A stretch of DNA of 64,000 nt from the NCBI GenBank assembly GCA_030550455.1, contig JAUQPH010000001.1, positions 252,259 through 316,258 on the forward strand. Reading direction: 5' to 3'. Below are positions 4,171-61,211 of the stretch, piece after piece. This DNA comes from Thermoproteota archaeon. GTDB lineage: Archaea; Thermoproteota; Thermoprotei_A; Sulfolobales; NBVN01. How positions within the stretch are numbered: position 1 is the first letter of the stretch; each line of letters begins with the position of its first letter. The notes beneath the pieces are model-generated. The model was not told where the DNA came from, made no database searches, and saw nothing but the letters and a program-made list of their open reading frames with translations. Position numbers and translations under genes: made by a program.

Positions 4171-5064
4171 GTGACGTATCTGAAGATATCTTTAGGTGTA
4201 ATACTAGCTGTAGCTATTCTAGTACTTATATGTGTTGTGTCTGGTATCAGCTGGTTGTTGGGTATTCAGCTCTACTCAACGCGTGCTCCTTTCTCAGCCT
4301 TCCTAATACTCCTTGTCTTGCTGATAGCAGGCTACGTCTTCATGACTGAAGCTAAGTCAGGTAAAGAATTTCCCGTGAGGAAGATACCTGCTTTCGACGC
4401 CATTGAGGAAGCCGTAGCTAGATCAGTCGAGATGGGTAGACCAGTGCACATGACGTTCGGCTTTGGGACCATATCGTCCGCTATGGCACCTCAGTTTATT
4501 GCCGGACTCGGAGTGCTATCGCATGTTGCTAGACTGTGCGGTAAGTATGGAGCAAAGCTGATCGCTACTCTAGGTGTACCTGAGGCAATAGCTACAACAG
4601 AGGAGATCGTTAGGGAGGGCTACTATTCCTCCGGTAGACCAGAGCTGTACGACCCTACTTACAACGTGAGGTACTTAACAGATCAGCAGTTTGCTTACGC
4701 TTCAGCTGTACAAGCGACACTTATTAGAGAAAATGTTGGAGCCAACATTGTCGTCGGCCCCTTCTATGCCGAGTCCCTGATATTCATGGAGGCAGGAAAC
4801 ATGGTTAACGCTTTCCAGATAGCTGGAACAGCTAGAGAAACCCAGATTCCGTTCTTTGTTCTAGTAGCAGACTACTCGTTCATAGGTGAGGAAATATTTG
4901 CCGCTGGAGCGCTGGCTTCAGGAGATAGGGAAACACTAGCCTCGATAAGAGGGCAGGACGTAGGTAAGCTCTTATCAATAATACTGATCGTTCTCGGGAT
5001 ACTCCTACTCTTAGGAGGCTTTAAGCTAGTAGATTCTCTCAACTGGGTATGGAAGGTGGGGTGA
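4171..5064 (+). CDS. Membrane protein with soluble domain (DUF6754-like), operon gene 1
   Basis: A 297-residue protein with two N-terminal membrane helices (about 6-27 and 40-60), a soluble alpha/beta domain (about 70-262) and one C-terminal helix (about 266-287). The soluble part contains glycine-rich strand-turn-helix segments (HMTFGFGTISS, IVVGPFYAESL) and resembles a family that I recall as DUF6754, function unknown. The GTG start is set by an immediate stop in the alternative ATG frame. It is the first of five genes spaced 4, -8, -4 and 2 bases apart. Gene 3 has the same plan (helix, soluble domain, helix), so the two may be distant paralogues forming a hetero-assembly. Confidence 0.75.
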   Translation: MTYLKISLGVILAVAILVLICVVSGISWLLGIQLYSTRAPFSAFLILLVLLIAGYVFMTEAKSGKEFPVRKIPAFDAIEEAVARSVEMGRPVHMTFGFGTISSAMAPQFIAGLGVLSHVARLCGKYGAKLIATLGVPEAIATTEEIVREGYYSSGRPELYDPTYNVRYLTDQQFAYASAVQATLIRENVGANIVVGPFYAESLIFMEAGNMVNAFQIAGTARETQIPFFVLVADYSFIGEEIFAAGALASGDRETLASIRGQDVGKLLSIILIVLGILLLLGGFKLVDSLNWVWKVG

Positions 5065-5068
5065 GAAC

Positions 5069-5758
5069 ATGAGTTTAGTCGTTAGAAGACACATCCCCCA
5101 GCTCATCGTCACTGTCATAATCATACTGACCGTAGCTTTCTACTACCTCTACATCAATAAAGGTATAGCGGAGTCCTTCACTACGGCCGACAAGGCCCTA
5201 AGTGACTGGGCCGTAATAATCACGAGCTTCGCACTGATAGTCGGAGGAATAGATATATTAAGGTTTCACTTAGTGAGGTTAAGGAAGGAAGGACTAAAAC
5301 AAGCACCATTCAGTGCGGTAACTATAGGGCTACTTGTAGTTATGGTGTTCTTCGCTCTGCATGGCTGGTTCCTAAGCTACGCTGACCCCAAGGCAGGTAT
5401 TACGATAACTACACAACCCCAGTTCAGATGGCTATATCTCAACGTTTATGCACCTGCAGATGCCGCTATGTACTCAATACTAGTGTTCTACATAGCTTCA
5501 GCCTCGTATAGAGCGTTTAGGGTCAGAAACCCGATGGCTTTACTGCTCCTCGTTACAGCACTCATCGTGATCTTTGGAAATACCACTATTGGCGGGCTGA
5601 TCTGGCCAGGCTTCTTACCCCTAAGAGACTGGATAATGACAGTTCCAAACACAGCCGCTTTCAGACCGATTACGATAGGTGCCGGTCTAGGAACCATAAT
5701 CTTAGGCCTGAGGTTGCTAACATGGAGGGAGGTAAGCTGGTTGGGGAGGCGTGAGTAA
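5069..5758 (+). CDS. Polytopic membrane protein, operon gene 2
   Basis: A 229-residue integral membrane protein with about six helices (roughly 10-29, 46-66, 80-103, 132-150, 155-178, 196-215). A short polar stretch (HLVRLRKEGLKQ) follows helix 2 and probably faces the cytoplasm. There are no transporter signatures, conserved charged pairs or cysteine motifs that I can identify. It starts 4 bases after gene 1 and its end overlaps gene 3 by 8 bases, so it is made together with the other members and probably contributes the membrane core of a complex. Confidence 0.7.
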   Translation: MSLVVRRHIPQLIVTVIIILTVAFYYLYINKGIAESFTTADKALSDWAVIITSFALIVGGIDILRFHLVRLRKEGLKQAPFSAVTIGLLVVMVFFALHGWFLSYADPKAGITITTQPQFRWLYLNVYAPADAAMYSILVFYIASASYRAFRVRNPMALLLLVTALIVIFGNTTIGGLIWPGFLPLRDWIMTVPNTAAFRPITIGAGLGTIILGLRLLTWREVSWLGRRE

Positions 5759-6611
5759 AATGAGTGGACTGAGTTCTCTAGAAAAAGTCTTGGGATCTAA
5801 AGAACTCCTATACACTCTTCTATTACTTTCAGTTATCCTACCGATACTACACCCCCTGGGAATCCCAGTCGAGATCTCTCAGAGAACTCGAGACGTGTAT
5901 GGCTATATCGAAAAGAATTTGCGTTCAGGTTGCCGTGTATATATAGAGGTATACTACGAGGTTGCTGCCAGAGGAGAGCTGGAGCCAAACTTGATAGCCT
6001 TAACAAAGCACCTCTTCGACAAGGGGTGCAAGATAGTTTACGGCTCACTAGGAGCTTTCGGTGTAGTAGCTTTCTCCCTCTTTAAGTCTATGGCTTCAGA
6101 CTTATTCGAAGGCAAAGAGTACGGTAGGGACTACGTATATCTTGGCTACATAGCTGGTGGAGAGGCGGCATCAGCTTCCCTAGCTAAGAGCATTAAGGGT
6201 ACGATTAGCGTCGACAACTACGGCAACAGATTAGAAGACCTTCCACTAATGAGAGAAGTAGATAAAGCAACAGATTTCGACTTAGTGATCATAGTCTCGT
6301 CCGGTACTGACGTATTTTCCTACTACGTTAGGCAGTGGCATACACCTTATGGAGTACCTCTTTTGTTTGCGGCTCTTAGTGTCATAGCTCCCTCAATAGA
6401 GCCATTTGTGGGAGCTAAGCAGGCCGTAGGAATGCTTGTTGGTCAGAGGTCTGCAGCCGAGTACGAGGTTCTAGTAGGGCGGCTCGGACTAGGTATAGCG
6501 TCCATGGACGCGCAAAGCACGTCTCACATGCTAATTGTAGCGTTCATCATTATAGGGAACGCCATATACTGGGGCAAGAGGGTTTCATCCAAGAAGGGTG
6601 GTTCAAAATGA
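5751..6611 (+). CDS. Membrane-anchored alpha/beta protein, operon gene 3
   Basis: A 286-residue protein: N-terminal hydrophobic helix (about 18-36), a long soluble domain (about 45-250) and a C-terminal helix (about 258-277) with a basic tail. The soluble part has alternating strands and helices with short glycine turns (YGSLGAFGVV, LGYIAGGEAA, VIIVSSGTDVF) as in a Rossmann-type fold. No nucleotide-binding loop matches a known family. The topology copies gene 1, and a stretch near residue 225 (VGAKQAVGMLVGQR) may pack on the membrane. It overlaps gene 2 by 8 bases and gene 4 by 4 bases. Confidence 0.7.
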   Translation: MSKMSGLSSLEKVLGSKELLYTLLLLSVILPILHPLGIPVEISQRTRDVYGYIEKNLRSGCRVYIEVYYEVAARGELEPNLIALTKHLFDKGCKIVYGSLGAFGVVAFSLFKSMASDLFEGKEYGRDYVYLGYIAGGEAASASLAKSIKGTISVDNYGNRLEDLPLMREVDKATDFDLVIIVSSGTDVFSYYVRQWHTPYGVPLLFAALSVIAPSIEPFVGAKQAVGMLVGQRSAAEYEVLVGRLGLGIASMDAQSTSHMLIVAFIIIGNAIYWGKRVSSKKGGSK

Positions 6612-7336
6612 TTAGCTGGGACTTGTTCGGGGCCTGGCTCTGCGCTGCCATGGTGGTCTGGATCTACAGCTTTGTCTACAGGGATAACGTGTTCTATAAG
6701 GTAGCTGAGCACATGTTCGTGGGTACAGCCGCCGGCTACTCGATAGCTTTAGCTCTAGATAGCTTGAATAGAGTACTCATTTCACCGGCTGTTCGAAGCC
6801 CTCAAACCTTCTTGACTACCTCGTGGCACTACCTAATCCCAGCTATACTAGGTGTGCTGATGTTCGCTAAGTACTCCAGAAAGTACTACTGGCTAGCTAG
6901 ATACGCAGTTGCTATCAACATAGCCGTAGGTACCGGTCTAGCTCTTAGAACCGTGCCTATAGCAAACGTGGTTAGACAGATCACCGCTACTATAGTCCCC
7001 CTCTGGGGTTCTGATCCGGTTAAAGTCTTTAACAATTGGGTCTTGGTATTGATAACGCTGGGTGGATTAACCTACTTCCTCTTTACGATATTTCCAAGGA
7101 GAGTAGAGGGCGCTAGAGCGTCTCCTCAGCACTTAGTCTACAGAGCTCTCTACTACATCGGTATTTACGGAATGATGGTCGGCTTTGGAGCACTGTTCGC
7201 TAATACTATAATGACTAGAGTAGGGTTCCTGATATCTATTTACCTAATATACATACAACCACAGGCGTGGGCCTCTATTATAGCAGCAGTCCTAGCCGCT
7301 ATAGCGATAATCGTAGGTATCCTGAGAAAGAAGTAA
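6608..7336 (+). CDS. Polytopic membrane protein, operon gene 4
   Basis: A 242-residue integral membrane protein with about seven helices from residue 5 to residue 239 and a short basic C terminus (LRKK). The ATG overlaps the stop of gene 3 (ATGA type), a sign of translational coupling. The loop after helix 5 is rich in basic residues (FPRRVEGARAS), suggesting a cytoplasmic face. I do not recognise the family. Together with gene 2 it gives the operon about 13 membrane helices, consistent with the integral part of a complex. Confidence 0.7.
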   Translation: MISWDLFGAWLCAAMVVWIYSFVYRDNVFYKVAEHMFVGTAAGYSIALALDSLNRVLISPAVRSPQTFLTTSWHYLIPAILGVLMFAKYSRKYYWLARYAVAINIAVGTGLALRTVPIANVVRQITATIVPLWGSDPVKVFNNWVLVLITLGGLTYFLFTIFPRRVEGARASPQHLVYRALYYIGIYGMMVGFGALFANTIMTRVGFLISIYLIYIQPQAWASIIAAVLAAIAIIVGILRKK

Positions 7337-7338
7337 TC

Positions 7339-7596
7339 ATGTCGGAGACTATCAGCGAGGACGAGCTACTGGAGAAGCTAGCGAGAAAGATAGTTGACTC
7401 GAAACTCGATACAATAGTTATTTTTTTACTTACTTCATTTGGTCCTATGGGTCGAGTTTGGGCTCAGCTTGCTAGACTCTATCTACAACCACTCCTGATC
7501 TTGCTTGGGGACTACGGAGAGTTCTTCCTCAAAGTTCTTCAAGACCCGGAGAGAGTAGAAAAGCTCGTAAGTAAGATTGAGGAACTAAGTCAATAA
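7339..7596 (+). CDS. Small amphipathic protein, operon gene 5
   Basis: I chose ATG 7339, two bases after the gene 4 stop; a longer frame would lie inside gene 4. The 85-residue product has an acidic helical start (SETISEDELLEKLARK), a hydrophobic middle (about 27-57) that could be a membrane-associated helix pair, and a charged C-terminal helix (PERVEKLVSKIEEL). It could be a peripheral subunit or assembly factor of the complex encoded by the four preceding genes. The family is not recognised. Confidence 0.65.
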   Translation: MSETISEDELLEKLARKIVDSKLDTIVIFLLTSFGPMGRVWAQLARLYLQPLLILLGDYGEFFLKVLQDPERVEKLVSKIEELSQ

Positions 7597-55359: not shown

Positions 55360-56604
55360 GTGGTGTTAGGTTTGGTAAATCACGAGAGGTATGTCTTATT
55401 ACCCGACAGGTTATTCGATGGTAAGGGAAACTTTCTAAGCAAGCCAGCAGTTGTCGTAGAGGGAAAGCGCATAGTGGATATAACAACTAGGGGCTCGGTT
55501 GACGTCGGGGAACAGTCTAAGGTGATAGAGTTGAAGGGTGTCACCCTTCTGCCTGGTCTCGTAGATGCTCACGTACACTTCACGGGCTTGAGAACCTATA
55601 ATCCGGCGGAAATAGCTGTAGTTCCACAAGACCTTAGAGTACTTAGAGCTGCTCAAGATGCTCAGAAGGCTCTGCTATCTGGCTTCACTACTCTAAGAGA
55701 CTGCGGTGGAACCATAGCCTTATCTCTAAGGAGAGCCATAGCTGAGGGGACCGTTCCTGGTCCCCGCATCCTAGCTTCCGGAAGACCTATATGTCAGACT
55801 GGTGGGCACTGTGACACACACTACATGCCACTCGAAGACGTTATTAAGAGGGGCTCCGCCCTACTGTGCGATGGTCCCTGGGAGTGCAGGAAAGCTGCTA
55901 GAATAGCACTTAGAGACGGAGCGGACTTCATCAAGGTCATGACATCAGGTGGCGTGGGGTCCGAAAAAGACGACCCTAGGCACCCACAGATGAGTGTAGA
56001 AGAAGTTAAAGCTGTTGCTGAAGAAGCTCATAGAGTCGGTAAGAAGGTCGCTTCACACGCTCAAGGAGCTGAAGGCGTTAAGATAGCTATCTTAGGAGGT
56101 GTCGACACTATCGAGCACGGCTACTTCCTAGATGAGGAGTCTATAGAGCTCATGAAGGAGCGAGGAGTTTGCTACGTACCGACCCTATGCCTCGTAGAGG
56201 TCTACAGAAAGACTCTGGAAAACCCTCCTCCAGGGATCCCCGAGTGGAGGCTGAAGAAGCAGGAGGAGTGCATCGAGTACATGCCACAAAGCTTTAGAGC
56301 GGCTTATAGAGCTGGAGTAAAGATAGCTACTGGAACAGACTACTACGGCCCCCCACTTAGGGCTTTCGGTAGTCACGCAGACGAACCTATAGTCATGGTA
56401 AAGTACGGCATGAATCCTGTTGACGCACTTACTGCATCAACTAAAAACGCTGCGGAGTGCTTGGGATTAAGCAATGTAGGCATAGTCGATAAGGGCATGG
56501 TAGCAGACTTAGTGGGCGTGTTGGGAGACCCTGAAACAGACATTGAGACTCTAAGGAATGTGGTCTTCGTTATGAAGGAGGGGTTTGTCGTCCTCAGAAG
56601 ATGA
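55360..56604 (+). CDS. Metal-dependent amidohydrolase (imidazolonepropionase/prolidase-like)
   Basis: A 414-residue TIM-barrel hydrolase. Metal ligands: DAHVHF (near residue 70), the bridging lysine in DFIKVMTSGGVGSEKDDP, HAQGAEGV, EHGYF and the aspartate of GTDYYGPP. Close to the archaeal Xaa-Pro dipeptidase / Sgx9260-type amidohydrolases, which cleave amide bonds such as those of N-acyl or proline peptides. The natural substrate is not evident. Start GTG 55360. The next gene begins 5 bases after the stop. Confidence 0.9.
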   Translation: MVLGLVNHERYVLLPDRLFDGKGNFLSKPAVVVEGKRIVDITTRGSVDVGEQSKVIELKGVTLLPGLVDAHVHFTGLRTYNPAEIAVVPQDLRVLRAAQDAQKALLSGFTTLRDCGGTIALSLRRAIAEGTVPGPRILASGRPICQTGGHCDTHYMPLEDVIKRGSALLCDGPWECRKAARIALRDGADFIKVMTSGGVGSEKDDPRHPQMSVEEVKAVAEEAHRVGKKVASHAQGAEGVKIAILGGVDTIEHGYFLDEESIELMKERGVCYVPTLCLVEVYRKTLENPPPGIPEWRLKKQEECIEYMPQSFRAAYRAGVKIATGTDYYGPPLRAFGSHADEPIVMVKYGMNPVDALTASTKNAAECLGLSNVGIVDKGMVADLVGVLGDPETDIETLRNVVFVMKEGFVVLRR

Positions 56605-56609
56605 TTTAA

Positions 56610-56966
56610 ATGCCTTATAGGAGAGTTAAAGTACTGCGAGTAGAAGTTGAAAGTGGAGATTTAGTCCTAGTCAGCTTTACTGGAAGAGACAGAGTACCTA
56701 CTTCTTCTATACGTAGAGTAGGTACTCTGAGGAAATACAGCAGAATTCTCGTTGCTCTCGTTATAGCTATGGCAGCTGTTTCACTTTACACGCAGGATCC
56801 CTTCCATACAGTACTCACGCTAATAATGCTGGGAGTTACACTAGCTACCAAGGAGGAAGTACTAATCGTAGATATAGTAGATGGAGACACGATCGAAGTT
56901 AGTGCTAAAGATAGACAGTCCGTTAAGAAAGCTGTTGAAGAACTAAGAAAACTACTTACTCACTAA
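56610..56966 (+). CDS. Small two-helix membrane protein
   Basis: A 118-residue protein: a beta-rich start (residues 1-38), two membrane helices (about 46-62 and 67-82), then a beta/alpha end (EEVLIVDIVDGDTIEVSAKD) with a charged C-terminal helix. The ends probably face the cytoplasm. It begins 5 bases after the amidohydrolase gene, in one operon, and its end overlaps the convergent 56956-58098 gene by 11 bases. Not recognised. Confidence 0.65.
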   Translation: MPYRRVKVLRVEVESGDLVLVSFTGRDRVPTSSIRRVGTLRKYSRILVALVIAMAAVSLYTQDPFHTVLTLIMLGVTLATKEEVLIVDIVDGDTIEVSAKDRQSVKKAVEELRKLLTH

Positions 56967-58098
56967 TTATTTCAACGTTAGCTCGAGGAATAAGCACTTC
57001 CCTTCCGTCTTGGAGACGCACTCTAACCACTCTCACCGGGGACTCTGTCTCGATTTTGTGTAGCTCCACTGGAAGCTCGATAACGGTTCCTATCTCACCG
57101 AAATATGGGTACCTTATGATTCTAACAGTGCTACCAACCCTCATCTTACCCTCACCCAGGGGCTCTAAAGCACCTGCGAAGCTCTCTTCGTCTCTAGGAA
57201 TTATTACCTCCGGTCTTATTACGCCGGCTCTAACCTGCGTAGCCCCGTTGATCGCTGCCTCTCTCCCTTCGTTTTCCTTAAATATATCGAACGCTCTTTT
57301 AGACATAGGTAGCTTTCCGAAGCCTTCCGTGAGAACTAGCGTGAATCCTATATTTTCCCTTCCCGTAATAGCTACCCCAATTCTATAACCTAAGACTTTC
57401 TCTAAGTCAGTGATCTTAGCACCTCCAACCACTATACCGGCAACACCGACTTTTCTAGCTTTTTCGAGTGCTTCGTAAGTTATGAGAGATCCTCCAACAA
57501 TTATCTTACCAGCGTGGTGTTCACCTATTTGGTCTGGACCCACTACGTCCTGGTTACTAGAGGAGACGAGCTCTATAACTCCATGCCTCTCTCCACCGAA
57601 CCCTATGATTCCCTGAATGAATGCTGCCGGAGTCCCGATCGTAACAGATTCGCCTGGAACTACCTTTAGAACCGTTCCACGGATATATGCTCTCAACTCT
57701 ATTACGCGTGGAGGAGCCCTTATAGTGAGATGTCCCGTGATCTCACTGAATCCCTCAACAACGCCTTCAACTGGTGATTCGACAGATTTTTTCAGAAGAC
57801 CTAGGAAGGCCGTGTAGCTGGCGAGATTAGTGCCCTTAGAAACAGTGTCTCCTACTTTAACTCTCAAGTACCTAACTACTTCTTCGGGTTCTACTCCCAA
57901 AAGCTCTGCTACCTTAACTATGTACGGAGGTCCCTCCAGGTAACACCTGCCGACGATCGTCTCAAAGTCAACTTTTTCTCCTTGGTTTACTAGGGTTTCC
58001 CCTCTAATCGGCAGAGCTCTCTCCCTGGTTATGTAGGTGAGCGGTGTAACAGCAAGACCAGGGGTATACGCAAAGCTTTCCTCACTCACTGCTAACAC
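56956..58098 (-). CDS. Partner of GlmL-like ATPase: biotinyl/RnfC-like and KOW-like domains
   Basis: A 380-residue soluble protein. The first half (about 45-150) has hammerhead-like beta segments (KVGDTVSKGTNLASY, ESPVEGVVEGFSEITGH, GTVLKVVPGESVTIG) like RnfC or lipoyl domains. The centre has glycine-rich Rossmann-like strands (GKIIVGGSLITYEAL, VAGIVVGGAKITDLE). The C-terminal end (about 310-380) resembles a KOW/SH3 barrel (VRIIRYPYFGEIGTV). Start GTG 58098 follows the GlmL stop directly, so the two are co-translated. Function unknown; a stable partner of the ATPase is likely. Confidence 0.75.
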   Translation of the reverse strand: MLAVSEESFAYTPGLAVTPLTYITRERALPIRGETLVNQGEKVDFETIVGRCYLEGPPYIVKVAELLGVEPEEVVRYLRVKVGDTVSKGTNLASYTAFLGLLKKSVESPVEGVVEGFSEITGHLTIRAPPRVIELRAYIRGTVLKVVPGESVTIGTPAAFIQGIIGFGGERHGVIELVSSSNQDVVGPDQIGEHHAGKIIVGGSLITYEALEKARKVGVAGIVVGGAKITDLEKVLGYRIGVAITGRENIGFTLVLTEGFGKLPMSKRAFDIFKENEGREAAINGATQVRAGVIRPEVIIPRDEESFAGALEPLGEGKMRVGSTVRIIRYPYFGEIGTVIELPVELHKIETESPVRVVRVRLQDGREVLIPRANVEIISE

Positions 58099-59949
58099 CT
58101 AACTTAGCTTAGTGAGGAAGTCTCCTGGGTAAAGCTCGAGGGCCTTAAACCACGAGACCAGTAGTTTCCTCCTCTCTCTTGGATCCTGCGGTACGTAAAG
58201 CGGTCTACCTCTTCCATCAATTACTACTCCTACAACTCCACCGCGTACTCTCTTCCTAACTCTTCTGCCGTATCCCTGCCCGAAGTCGAACTTCTTAGTC
58301 GGCTCTACGGTTACAACTACCTCTTTATACTGAGGTATAGGTATTCTCACTACGCTCCCAAAAGTTAGCTCTACCCGCTCTTTCTCTTGCTCAGAATACT
58401 CTATGGTGATATCCGCAACTTTCTCACCGAGAGATCCGACACCTGCAGCAGCTACTAAAGTACCGAGTGGTACGAGGCACTCCTTCTCGAATATCTCGAG
58501 CGCTATCTCTCTATATATCTTCGAGAGCACTCCCAAGTGAGGTATCATGAATACGCTGTCTTGCATTATGTACGTAAACCCTATCGGTTGGAAGGCATCT
58601 GCGAGTATAATCATAGATTGAGCCCTCCTTGGAGCTCTAGAGAGGAGACCCCCGGTGCCTATGATGTAGTCTACTCTCCTCAAGTCTATATAGGTCTCCT
58701 CGGCTTTAACTTCCTCAAATATATCGGATATAGTTCTCTCCCTCTTAACTCCCTTGAGCTCTCTAGCCAAGTACTTGTGGTGGTTGAAAGCCATTCTTAT
58801 GCTTTCGCGGGCTACAGCGTGCTCGACTACGAGGTCCTCTAAGGACATAGGTATAGTTGTAGGTCTGATCATCTTGTTGTAGACTATACCCATTATCTCA
58901 TCGTCTGTGAGGTCGAGTGGTATCCAGCGCTTAACATTCTCTAGACCGGCTTCTTTCAGTACGTTTCCTATGCTATAGCTCATCCCGAGGTTAGCGCTGA
59001 CGGTTCTCAGAAACCTCCCGTCGAAGACTGAATAAACGTTCGTTGTCGCACCACCCATACCTACCCCTATGACGTTGACCTTCTTCATCTCTGCGAAAGT
59101 TCTTATCATGAGCCCTTCGGCAGCTGGCGTCGGCATAATGTCTGTTGAAACGAGCTTCATCAGCTTTTCGTAACCGGGTGCGTGAGCCATAACGTGCTCC
59201 ATGAAGAGCTCTAGAATAGCGTTTCTCGCAGGCTCTACTTTCTCTACTTCTATCTGGGGCCTGATGTTATCTACGATCCTGACATCGAAGAAGTCGTCCG
59301 ATAGTATCCGCTTTATATCTTCTCTAGCGTCCTTATTTCCAGCGTACACCACTGGGAGCCTAAACGTAGCCCCGAATCTCGGCCTAGGCTTAGCTACAGC
59401 TATCACTTCACTCATCTCCAGAACGTGGGTCTTGTCACCTCCATCAGTTCCACCAGCTAGAAGTATCATGTCTGGTCTCAGAAACCTCAAGGTGTTTATT
59501 TTCTCATGTATTTCTCTACCATCGTCTACCGATAGAACGTCCATCACTATGGCTCCAGCACCTAAAGCAGCTCTCTGAGCGCTTTCAGCGGTAATACTCT
59601 TGACAACACCAGCTACAAGCATCTGGAGACCTCCACCAGCACTGCTAGTTGATACATAGACGTCTATACCTACCCTACCACCCCGATAGGGCATGACGAA
59701 CCTGAGTTCTTCGGTTGAGTCATCAAGTATCTTGTGTCCAGTAAGCTCTTCAACCTCTCTCACAGCATTTCTAACCCCCTTAGTAACATCTTCTACAGGC
59801 TTCTCAACTGTCGTTGGCGCCTCGCCACTTGCTAGAAACCTCCACTCACCGTCTATCTTACCGAAGAACCTCGCTTTAGTAGTCGTACTTCCTACATCTG
59901 TTGCGAGAATAAACCTAGGCTCTCTAGCGTAGCTTACTACGTCCATCAC
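58099..59949 (-). CDS. GlmL/MutL-like ATPase (glutamate mutase accessory family)
   Basis: A 616-residue actin/Hsp70-fold ATPase of the MutL/GlmL family, encoded beside adenosylcobalamin-dependent carbon or amine mutases in bacteria, where it is thought to act as a chaperone or reactivase. ATP-binding segments are LATDVGSTTTKARFFG at the start, MILLAGGTDGGDKTHVLEM near residue 165, GVGMGGATTNVYSVFDG near 300 and IIGTGGLLSRAP near 425. No mutase subunit, B12 gene or amino acid fermentation gene is in the window, so its client is unknown. Start GTG 59949 or ATG 59946. Confidence 0.88.
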   Translation of the reverse strand: MMDVVSYAREPRFILATDVGSTTTKARFFGKIDGEWRFLASGEAPTTVEKPVEDVTKGVRNAVREVEELTGHKILDDSTEELRFVMPYRGGRVGIDVYVSTSSAGGGLQMLVAGVVKSITAESAQRAALGAGAIVMDVLSVDDGREIHEKINTLRFLRPDMILLAGGTDGGDKTHVLEMSEVIAVAKPRPRFGATFRLPVVYAGNKDAREDIKRILSDDFFDVRIVDNIRPQIEVEKVEPARNAILELFMEHVMAHAPGYEKLMKLVSTDIMPTPAAEGLMIRTFAEMKKVNVIGVGMGGATTNVYSVFDGRFLRTVSANLGMSYSIGNVLKEAGLENVKRWIPLDLTDDEIMGIVYNKMIRPTTIPMSLEDLVVEHAVARESIRMAFNHHKYLARELKGVKRERTISDIFEEVKAEETYIDLRRVDYIIGTGGLLSRAPRRAQSMIILADAFQPIGFTYIMQDSVFMIPHLGVLSKIYREIALEIFEKECLVPLGTLVAAAGVGSLGEKVADITIEYSEQEKERVELTFGSVVRIPIPQYKEVVVTVEPTKKFDFGQGYGRRVRKRVRGGVVGVVIDGRGRPLYVPQDPRERRKLLVSWFKALELYPGDFLTKLS

Positions 59950-60371
59950 CCAGAATGGTTTAAGTCAACTAAAATAAGTACCCGAACACGGCAACTAAAA
60001 CCACCTAACGTGAATCCTCATGTAGCTGTTTCGAGTTTAATACTTGTTCATGTTGATTAATACTGATTGAAATATTTAGGGTAAGTACCTAGGGACCTCA
60101 GAGAGCGGGAGGCTAACTAAAAACGAACCTTGGGAGCTTAGGAGCTGGTACCGTGTGGTAAAGCCTATTCTAAGACTGGTCTAGGTAGCTGGTAACTAAA
60201 GGCAACGATTCTGTCAGCGCTACAGTGGCTCATCAACATCAGGCCGCCCGTCGTTCGCATCATCCAGACAAAAAGTAGATAAAGAGCTAATATGTGCTGT
60301 CCGAATCCTATAGCTAGCATAGCTGTGGAAATATAAAACTAGGGAAAACCATGCTACCGCATTAGGCCGGT
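59950..60371. other. Gap holding a C/D box RNA
   Basis: Divergent-convergent spacer of 422 bases between the GlmL-like gene and the acetoacetate-decarboxylase-like gene. Its only recognised content is the minus-strand C/D RNA at 60209-60268 and AT-rich promoter-like stretches upstream of the GlmL gene. Confidence 0.5.
60209..60268 (-). ncRNA. C/D box guide RNA for 16S rRNA C1402 (predicted)
   Basis: On the minus strand: box C ATGATGC (60263-60257), a 14-base guide (60256-60243), D' CTGA (60242-60239), C' TGATGA (60235-60230), a 12-base guide (60229-60218), and D CTGA (60217-60214). The D' guide pairs without mismatch with CCGCCCGUC, the universal 16S decoding-site sequence (E. coli 1399-1407). 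Five bases from D' lies C1402. The D guide pairs with GCUACAAUGGC (16S near 1233-1243) with one mismatch and would point to A1236. A TATA-like box lies upstream near 60278-60285. Confidence 0.82.
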
Positions 60372-61211
60372 CTAGCTGAATCCCTCCGCTCTACCTACAG
60401 CACTCACACTCTTCAGCTTTAGCGCCATGTTGAAGTAATAGCCAACCGCTTCCGATATAGGCTTAAGGCTTTCTAATTCGTCATTAGGTCCTCCGATTAC
60501 CTCTATCTCACCTCTTCCACGCCAAGTTCTAGCGTCTATTTCTCCAACTAACTCCACAAGCTCGTTAACTGTTGCTAGAGTCGGTGACACTCCTGCGAAG
60601 TACCTGATTAGGATGAACGGATGCTCTGTCAATAATGGTAGGTACTTACCTTCTCCATCGTCTCCTAGCTCAACTCTCACTCTATATAGAGTCGAGCCAG
60701 CTCTTGCGACGTAGCCACCGAGCTTTAAGCCTTTCCTAGGTCTATCGAGGCCTGAAATCATCGGGTGGGTCTTAGTGAGGGCAACTTTAGCCAGCTTCTT
60801 GGGCCAGCCGACTAGTAAACCCCTCAAAAGTGAGATATCTGAGTCAACCCACATAAACGGGCAGTAGGTATACGTCTTGCCACCATACTCAACTCTAACG
60901 AAGAACGCTCCTTCATGATAGTACAGCTGGTCTGGTGCCTCCGTAGAAAGCTCTACAGCATTAGGGCTCCACGTAACTATCTCAGTTATGTAAGCAAATA
61001 CTGACCCATCAGACACTCTGAGGGGTTTAGGTACTACATCAGTTAGTAAACTAGGATCTGCTTTATAGCTGACACCTAGACCAGTCAACCCGTAAACCCA
61101 GGGACCTCTAGGCACTAGAGCCGACTTACGGGTCTTTGTTAGAGGTCCTGACCAAAAGTCATGCGGTGCGATAGTGACCAACCCACAGCACCCACAAACC
61201 TGCTGTAACAT
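60372..61211 (-). CDS. Acetoacetate decarboxylase-like protein
   Basis: A 279-residue protein with the acetoacetate decarboxylase fold. The segment VDSDISLLRGLLVGWPKKLAKV matches the region of the Schiff-base lysine (the PKK pair) near residue 140, and FVRVEYGGKTYTYCPFMWVDSD precedes it. The arginine or glutamate normally before GWPKK differs (RGLLVGWPKK), so activity may be on another beta-keto or aldehyde substrate. The N terminus begins with a cysteine cluster (CGCCG). No solventogenic pathway genes are nearby. Confidence 0.82.
   Translation of the reverse strand: MLQQVCGCCGLVTIAPHDFWSGPLTKTRKSALVPRGPWVYGLTGLGVSYKADPSLLTDVVPKPLRVSDGSVFAYITEIVTWSPNAVELSTEAPDQLYYHEGAFFVRVEYGGKTYTYCPFMWVDSDISLLRGLLVGWPKKLAKVALTKTHPMISGLDRPRKGLKLGGYVARAGSTLYRVRVELGDDGEGKYLPLLTEHPFILIRYFAGVSPTLATVNELVELVGEIDARTWRGRGEIEVIGGPNDELESLKPISEAVGYYFNMALKLKSVSAVGRAEGFS

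Follow-up and report, generated by a model that had tools for sequence, protein, structure and literature searches.

The window analysed here, a stretch of 64,000 nucleotides from a Sulfolobales archaeon of the phylum Thermoproteota (contig JAUQPH010000001.1), encodes a MutL/GlmL-family ATPase (M, or MutL) and, directly after it on the same minus strand and with no gap, a protein of 380 residues (P380, or P). An earlier note on this DNA had claimed such a coupling of a GlmL-like ATPase to a 380-residue protein, which held, both open reading frames (ORFs) being present and abutting at the positions listed in Table 1. It had missed the probable client of the pair, a cassette of four membrane protein genes (A, B, C and D), which is followed by a gene of a small soluble protein (S) and lies entirely within the same window, at 4171-7596. 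The first of these genes was identified with the profile of DUF6754 (PF20539), which matched the source genome with 238.1 bits versus a cut-off of 27 (G000:C4:256546-257274, i.e. window positions 4288-5016). The amidohydrolase encoded next to the pair could be a substrate-linked enzyme, outside the core system. Upstream of the pair, a gene of an acetoacetate-decarboxylase-family protein has been found on the minus strand (60372-61211; PF06314, 135 bits), as well as, likewise upstream of MutL, what is probably the gene of an archaeal C/D box sRNA (60211-60267, minus strand), with boxes C, D', C' and D present; the latter scores under the Rfam gathering thresholds (best E 0.014) and is conserved in the related loci L032, L033 and L037.

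Table 1. Positions of the ATPase pair, the membrane cassette and neighbouring genes in the window.
Feature	Position	Strand	Basis or remark
A, DUF6754 (PF20539) membrane protein with predicted cytosolic Rossmann-like domain	4171-5064	plus	DUF6754 search, ORF, model, topology
B, polytopic membrane protein, 229 aa, no known family	5069-5758	plus	conserved directly after A
C, membrane protein, 286 aa, two end TM segments, domain of ~200 aa predicted outward	5751-6611	plus	
D, polytopic membrane protein, 242 aa, no known family	6608-7336	plus	
S, small soluble protein	7339-7596	plus	HMM built for S; start inferred from homologues (ORF opens at 7267)
Amidohydrolase (PF01979)	55360-56604	plus	neighbours the system in several archaea
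118-aa protein, two TM segments	56610-56966	plus	recurrent neighbour in archaeal loci
P380, 380 aa: barrel-sandwich (~20-131), RraA/swivelling-type (~135-305) and KOW (317-380) domains	56956-58098	minus	model and structure matches
M, MutL/GlmL-family ASKHA ATPase, 616 aa	58099-59949	minus	PF13941 match, ATP-site motifs

M matches the Pfam family MutL (PF13941) over the complete profile (residues 14-491 of 616, profile positions 1-450 of 450; 404 bits, 1e-120), and its ATP-site motifs (16-26, 295-303 and 431-436) are kept at >=95% in 45 homologues, as are portions of a C-terminal extension of about 125 amino acids past the Pfam match. In the full-length match and the ATP-site motifs it is like the GlmL/MutL of glutamate mutase, with which it shares the ASKHA ATPase fold family. 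On the other hand, it falls below the curated cut-offs of both the NCBIfam GlmL equivalog (230.5 versus 475 bits; NF040745 is listed for GlmL) and the NCBIfam GlmL family (161.1 versus 204 bits), its extension is conserved, and it has no mutase partner, being linked instead to P380 and the membrane cassette. The MutLs of this system form one clade, and the branch between it and two other MutLs is 2.3 substitutions per site long. A second type of MutL, only weakly matching that of the system, was observed in two Latescibacterota genomes (L137 1483-2937 and L138 1414-2913, ORFs of 484 and 499 amino acids). It adjoins a 153-aa protein, which in L137 looked like a GlmS subunit by eye, an assignment on which we base nothing, as Pfam gave no support (no match was found).

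P380, which has homologues in archaea and bacteria, exhibits no Pfam match above the cut-off in its window sequence (RnfC_N reaches 14.7 bits), while a bacterial homologue passes the RnfC_N cut-off (27.1 versus 25.6 bits). Its domains were recognised in an AlphaFold2 model (pLDDT 80.0, built from an alignment of 8 sequences), for which whole-chain TM-scores were weak with Foldseek alone. Structure comparison of the model relates the barrel-sandwich domain to NqrA (Z 8.0) and RnfC (Z 7.7), the middle domain to the RraA/swivelling type (Z 9.9, rmsd 4.2 over 129 residues) and the C-terminal domain to the KOW fold (Z 8.8, rmsd 1.7 over 58 residues), as in eS4, Spt5 and NusG (rmsd 1.1-2.6 A). The KOW-like segment proposed for this protein in the earlier note agrees with the model matches, the RnfC-like one does so tentatively, and its "Rossmann-like" middle segment turned out to be RraA/swivelling-like instead. 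The biotinyl/lipoyl-like character that had been claimed for it also failed: because no lysine is conserved at >=95% over 76 homologues, P380 shows no signature of a biotinyl/lipoyl carrier, and we rejected this assignment. In the model, P380 (residues ~55-131) resembles the N-terminal barrel-sandwich of RnfC and NqrA in its predicted fold, without a conserved carrier lysine, but no redox domain was recognised in it, and RraA/swivelling-type and KOW domains follow.

The model of A is of modest confidence (pLDDT 71.1). Its Rossmann-like core (72-251) is most similar to a Sir2 protein (Z 12.2) and scores about 10 with RCK domains; no Foldseek match was found at E 0.001. With the RCK domains of TrkA and MthK it has in common the general Rossmann-like fold, which is common, but no channel pore was recognised, and in several DUF6754 paralogues the domain is preceded by a single TM segment, so the assignment of DUF6754 as a potassium-channel RCK protein was rejected. 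Counts of positive charges place the domain of A on the cytosolic side in 13/13 sequences, and favour an outward domain of C in most of 13; in the window and L034 copies of C three TM segments were called. Sequence profiles of A, B, C and D compared with solved structures gave at best E 0.13, and no match to known transporter families exceeded the cut-off in the searches made; B bears a weak NCBIfam similarity to Na+/H+ antiporter subunit G (E 0.004, far below the cut-off). Profile comparison gave probabilities of <=2% for A with C, B with D and P380 with A, and homology within these pairs was likewise rejected. In a bacterial A protein an FN3-like N-terminal part was noticed by eye.

In the closest relatives (L032, L033 and L037) the cassette is contiguous with the pair, in the order A-B-C-D-S-M-P. 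Since the genes flanking each half in the window match those in these relatives, and the M-P half is inverted, a rearrangement of ~52 kb is inferred, probably an inversion (window 7597-59949) that has split one operon into A-B-C-D-S and M-P halves. No repeats that could explain the inversion were found at its breakpoints, and it may be that the split reflects an assembly error of the metagenome-assembled genome (MAG) rather than a biological inversion.

In a single sample of 200 genomes from the source phylum, P380, full-length MutL and DUF6754 were found in exactly the same four (G000, G062, G133 and G157). Matches of any kind to MutL occur in 26 genomes, five of them over the cut-off; that in the fifth (G013) covers only profile positions 4-55, with 27.3 bits, and the remaining 21, which are weaker and short, presumably represent other members of the ATPase superfamily. 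The four carriers fall into two genera and hence represent few independent events; counted by genus, two families would share 2 of 91 genera by chance with a probability of about 2.4e-4. Among seven named relatives (two Sulfolobales MAGs, two Desulfurococcales MAGs, two Bathyarchaeota and one Latescibacteria), P380 and DUF6754 are present in all and MutL in six. The genes A, B, C and D lie beside the pair in their loci, or, in the Latescibacteria genome (G206), which is without MutL, beside P380 alone, and the six archaeal loci additionally carry the short gene S. No relatives were found on viral contigs or plasmids.

The phylum of the Latescibacteria locus was surveyed in a sample of 64 Latescibacterota genomes, where DUF6754 is present in 54, P380 in 56 (two of them as fragments) and MutL in 54, after four genomes with short stretches only (G212-G215) were dropped from the 58 found at E 0.001 (57 over the cut-off). 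In 50 genomes the three families occur together and in six none of them does, and each pair co-occurs with a Fisher p of 1e-6 to 7e-5, uncorrected for kinship. Eight genomes are partial cases; in two of these P380 lies within ~230 bases of a contig end (G250 and G254), and in another (G230) a MutL fragment beside P380 was detected by a second search (L125). Eighteen of 20 regions have the order S-M-P-A-B-C-D on one strand, in which other genes may intervene, the exceptions being a contig that ends before D and a region without S and M. The HMM of S places this gene directly upstream of M in Latescibacterota and after D in archaea. Genes of a peptide ABC importer are found between M and P in five of the 20 regions (their families were checked on one, L168).

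Three related archaeal genomes contain 6-7 copies of DUF6754 versus one MutL and one P380 each. In G062 and G157 all 14 DUF6754 regions that were read show the arrangement A-B-C-D, and each of the two genomes has a single M-P pair at another place; the HMM of S gave no match in these regions. The paralogues are old, as their orthologues in G062 and G157 pair up and the A proteins of archaea with a single copy fall among them in the tree. Mean identity among seven paralogue sets is highest for A (0.40, versus 0.29-0.33 for B, C and D), and because the domain of A is both cytosolic and conserved, it is a natural docking site for a shared soluble module. Distances in the trees of MutL, P380 and A show Pearson correlations of 0.95-0.99, which partly reflect the species phylogeny.

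The composition of the system, its gene order, its co-inheritance, the intact ATP-site motifs and the presence of one pair against several membrane sets are shown by these data. It is very likely that the M-P380 pair works with A-B-C-D, and likely that it constitutes a shared ATPase module of the A-B-C-D complex. The best explanation overall, for and against which we find the arguments nearly balanced, is that a conserved membrane system comprising S, MutL, P380 and A-D has M-P380 as its ATPase module on the cytosolic side. P380 would use its barrel-sandwich, swivelling and KOW domains to dock on the Rossmann-like domain that A exposes to the cytosol and to connect this domain with MutL, the ATP cycle of which would drive or reset the A-B-C-D complex; where an archaeon has several A-B-C-D sets, all of them would be served by a single MutL-P380 pair. 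The outward-facing domain of C could bind a solute and would be a natural place for specificity. That the proteins dock physically, that ATP use is coupled to the complex and that solutes resembling peptides or amides are transported is inferred, and for solute transport by the complex our confidence is lower still, inclining slightly to doubt, as there is no biochemistry and transport has not been shown.

The theme of transport comes from neighbouring genes only, many copies of the system having peptidases, amidohydrolases or ABC importers of peptides or amino acids beside them. Those beside the membrane sets or the pair encode M14, M28, M55, DUF885 and TldD-type peptidases, amidohydrolases, gamma-glutamyltranspeptidase and Liv- or Opp-type importers, and they may indicate that small peptides or amides are taken up or handled, although no comparison with a random background is available and other neighbours (cysteinyl-tRNA synthetase, thiamine and carboxylase genes) fall outside this theme. 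Moreover, the ABC importers in several neighbourhoods could make a second importer redundant, a possibility that counts against the importer reading. A bolder reading, which cannot be put above the merely possible, is that of a class of primary active transporters in archaea and Latescibacterota powered by an ATPase of the ASKHA (actin/hexokinase) fold, in which one MutL-P380 energising module is shared by several dedicated A-B-C-D complexes.

Membership in the MutL family suggests another role, namely that of an accessory to a B12-dependent mutase encoded away from the pair, and the source genome does encode a methylmalonyl-CoA mutase on another contig, with an epimerase (by eye) and a B12 subunit beside it. 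The distribution, however, disagrees: methylmalonyl-CoA mutase (PF01642) is found in 66/200 genomes of the phylum, 65 of which are without full-length MutL, and it overlaps only one of the four MutL/P380 genomes, so the surveys reveal no association with the system. Besides, the B12-binding matches read in 11 carrier genomes fit other proteins (small subunits of methylmalonyl-CoA mutase, methyltransferase-type corrinoid proteins and radical SAM proteins), and in one Bathyarchaeota genome a mutase operon was confirmed with its own MeaB adjacent. These matches were mostly judged by eye, and not all 27 were classified by family search; the sole PF02310 match of the source genome is the small subunit of methylmalonyl-CoA mutase, but this genome is 87.8% complete, and a missed glutamate mutase is not excluded. 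We regard the mutase-accessory role as very unlikely and rejected it on the distribution. The absence of a mutase nearby, pointed out in the earlier note, hence held for the surroundings of the pair, yet not for the genome, and its proposal of a separate system with its own client is supported, the pair being co-inherited independently of B12 mutases. Neither of the observations that would refute that proposal was made: no mutase operon needing both proteins was found, nor any independent inheritance of the two genes beyond the eight incomplete cases among the 64 bacterial genomes. In G062, which has seven DUF6754 copies, a corrinoid protein was observed to adjoin a RACo-type activator and a 486-aa protein (L191 1-3342).

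It is also possible that MutL-P380 is an assembly or repair chaperone of A-B-C-D, similar to a reactivase, which spends ATP for maturation or reactivation and not for each turnover. Its precedent is GlmL/MutL, which according to PMC4682846 acts as a chaperone in the reactivation of glutamate mutase, and one pair per seven membrane sets would suit a substoichiometric service. However, among columns conserved at >=95% no cysteine or histidine hints at a labile cofactor in A, C or D, with only one histidine (H67) in B, and the single-operon layout in Latescibacterota suits a stoichiometric part equally well. Less plausible, and in our opinion unlikely, is that P380 is an adaptor contacting RNA or the ribosome, and the system a machine for envelope biogenesis or membrane insertion instead of a solute transporter. 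The resemblance of its KOW domain to eS4, Spt5 and NusG, the FN3-like part of the bacterial A protein and the large envelope-type proteins (CarboxypepD_reg) adjoining some loci speak for it; against it, KOW folds are also found outside RNA-binding proteins, and the different gene surroundings of several paralogous sets speak for diversification of substrates.

The shared-module reading has a parallel in ECF transporters of group II, in which a shared energising module serves several substrate-specific membrane parts. The logic of one ATP module and several dedicated membrane sets per genome is the same, but, in contrast to ECF and ABC transporters, the ATPase of the module is of the MutL and not the ABC type, the nearby ABC genes being those of separate importers.

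In open-access full text (subscription papers and preprints were outside the scope) we found no paper on DUF6754, PF20539 or PF13941, and nothing on such a membrane system under the topics of GlmL, MutL and ASKHA. At least within the searches made, DUF6754 thus gains its first partners, and the annotation "GlmL" is misleading for this clade of MutL. A MutL-family ATPase, usually annotated as a helper of B12 mutases, has a second association, with a membrane complex of unknown function, which spans archaea and one bacterial phylum, Latescibacterota. If it is true that ATP hydrolysis by an ASKHA fold drives this complex, it would represent a kind of membrane energisation for which, to our knowledge, there is no example so far.
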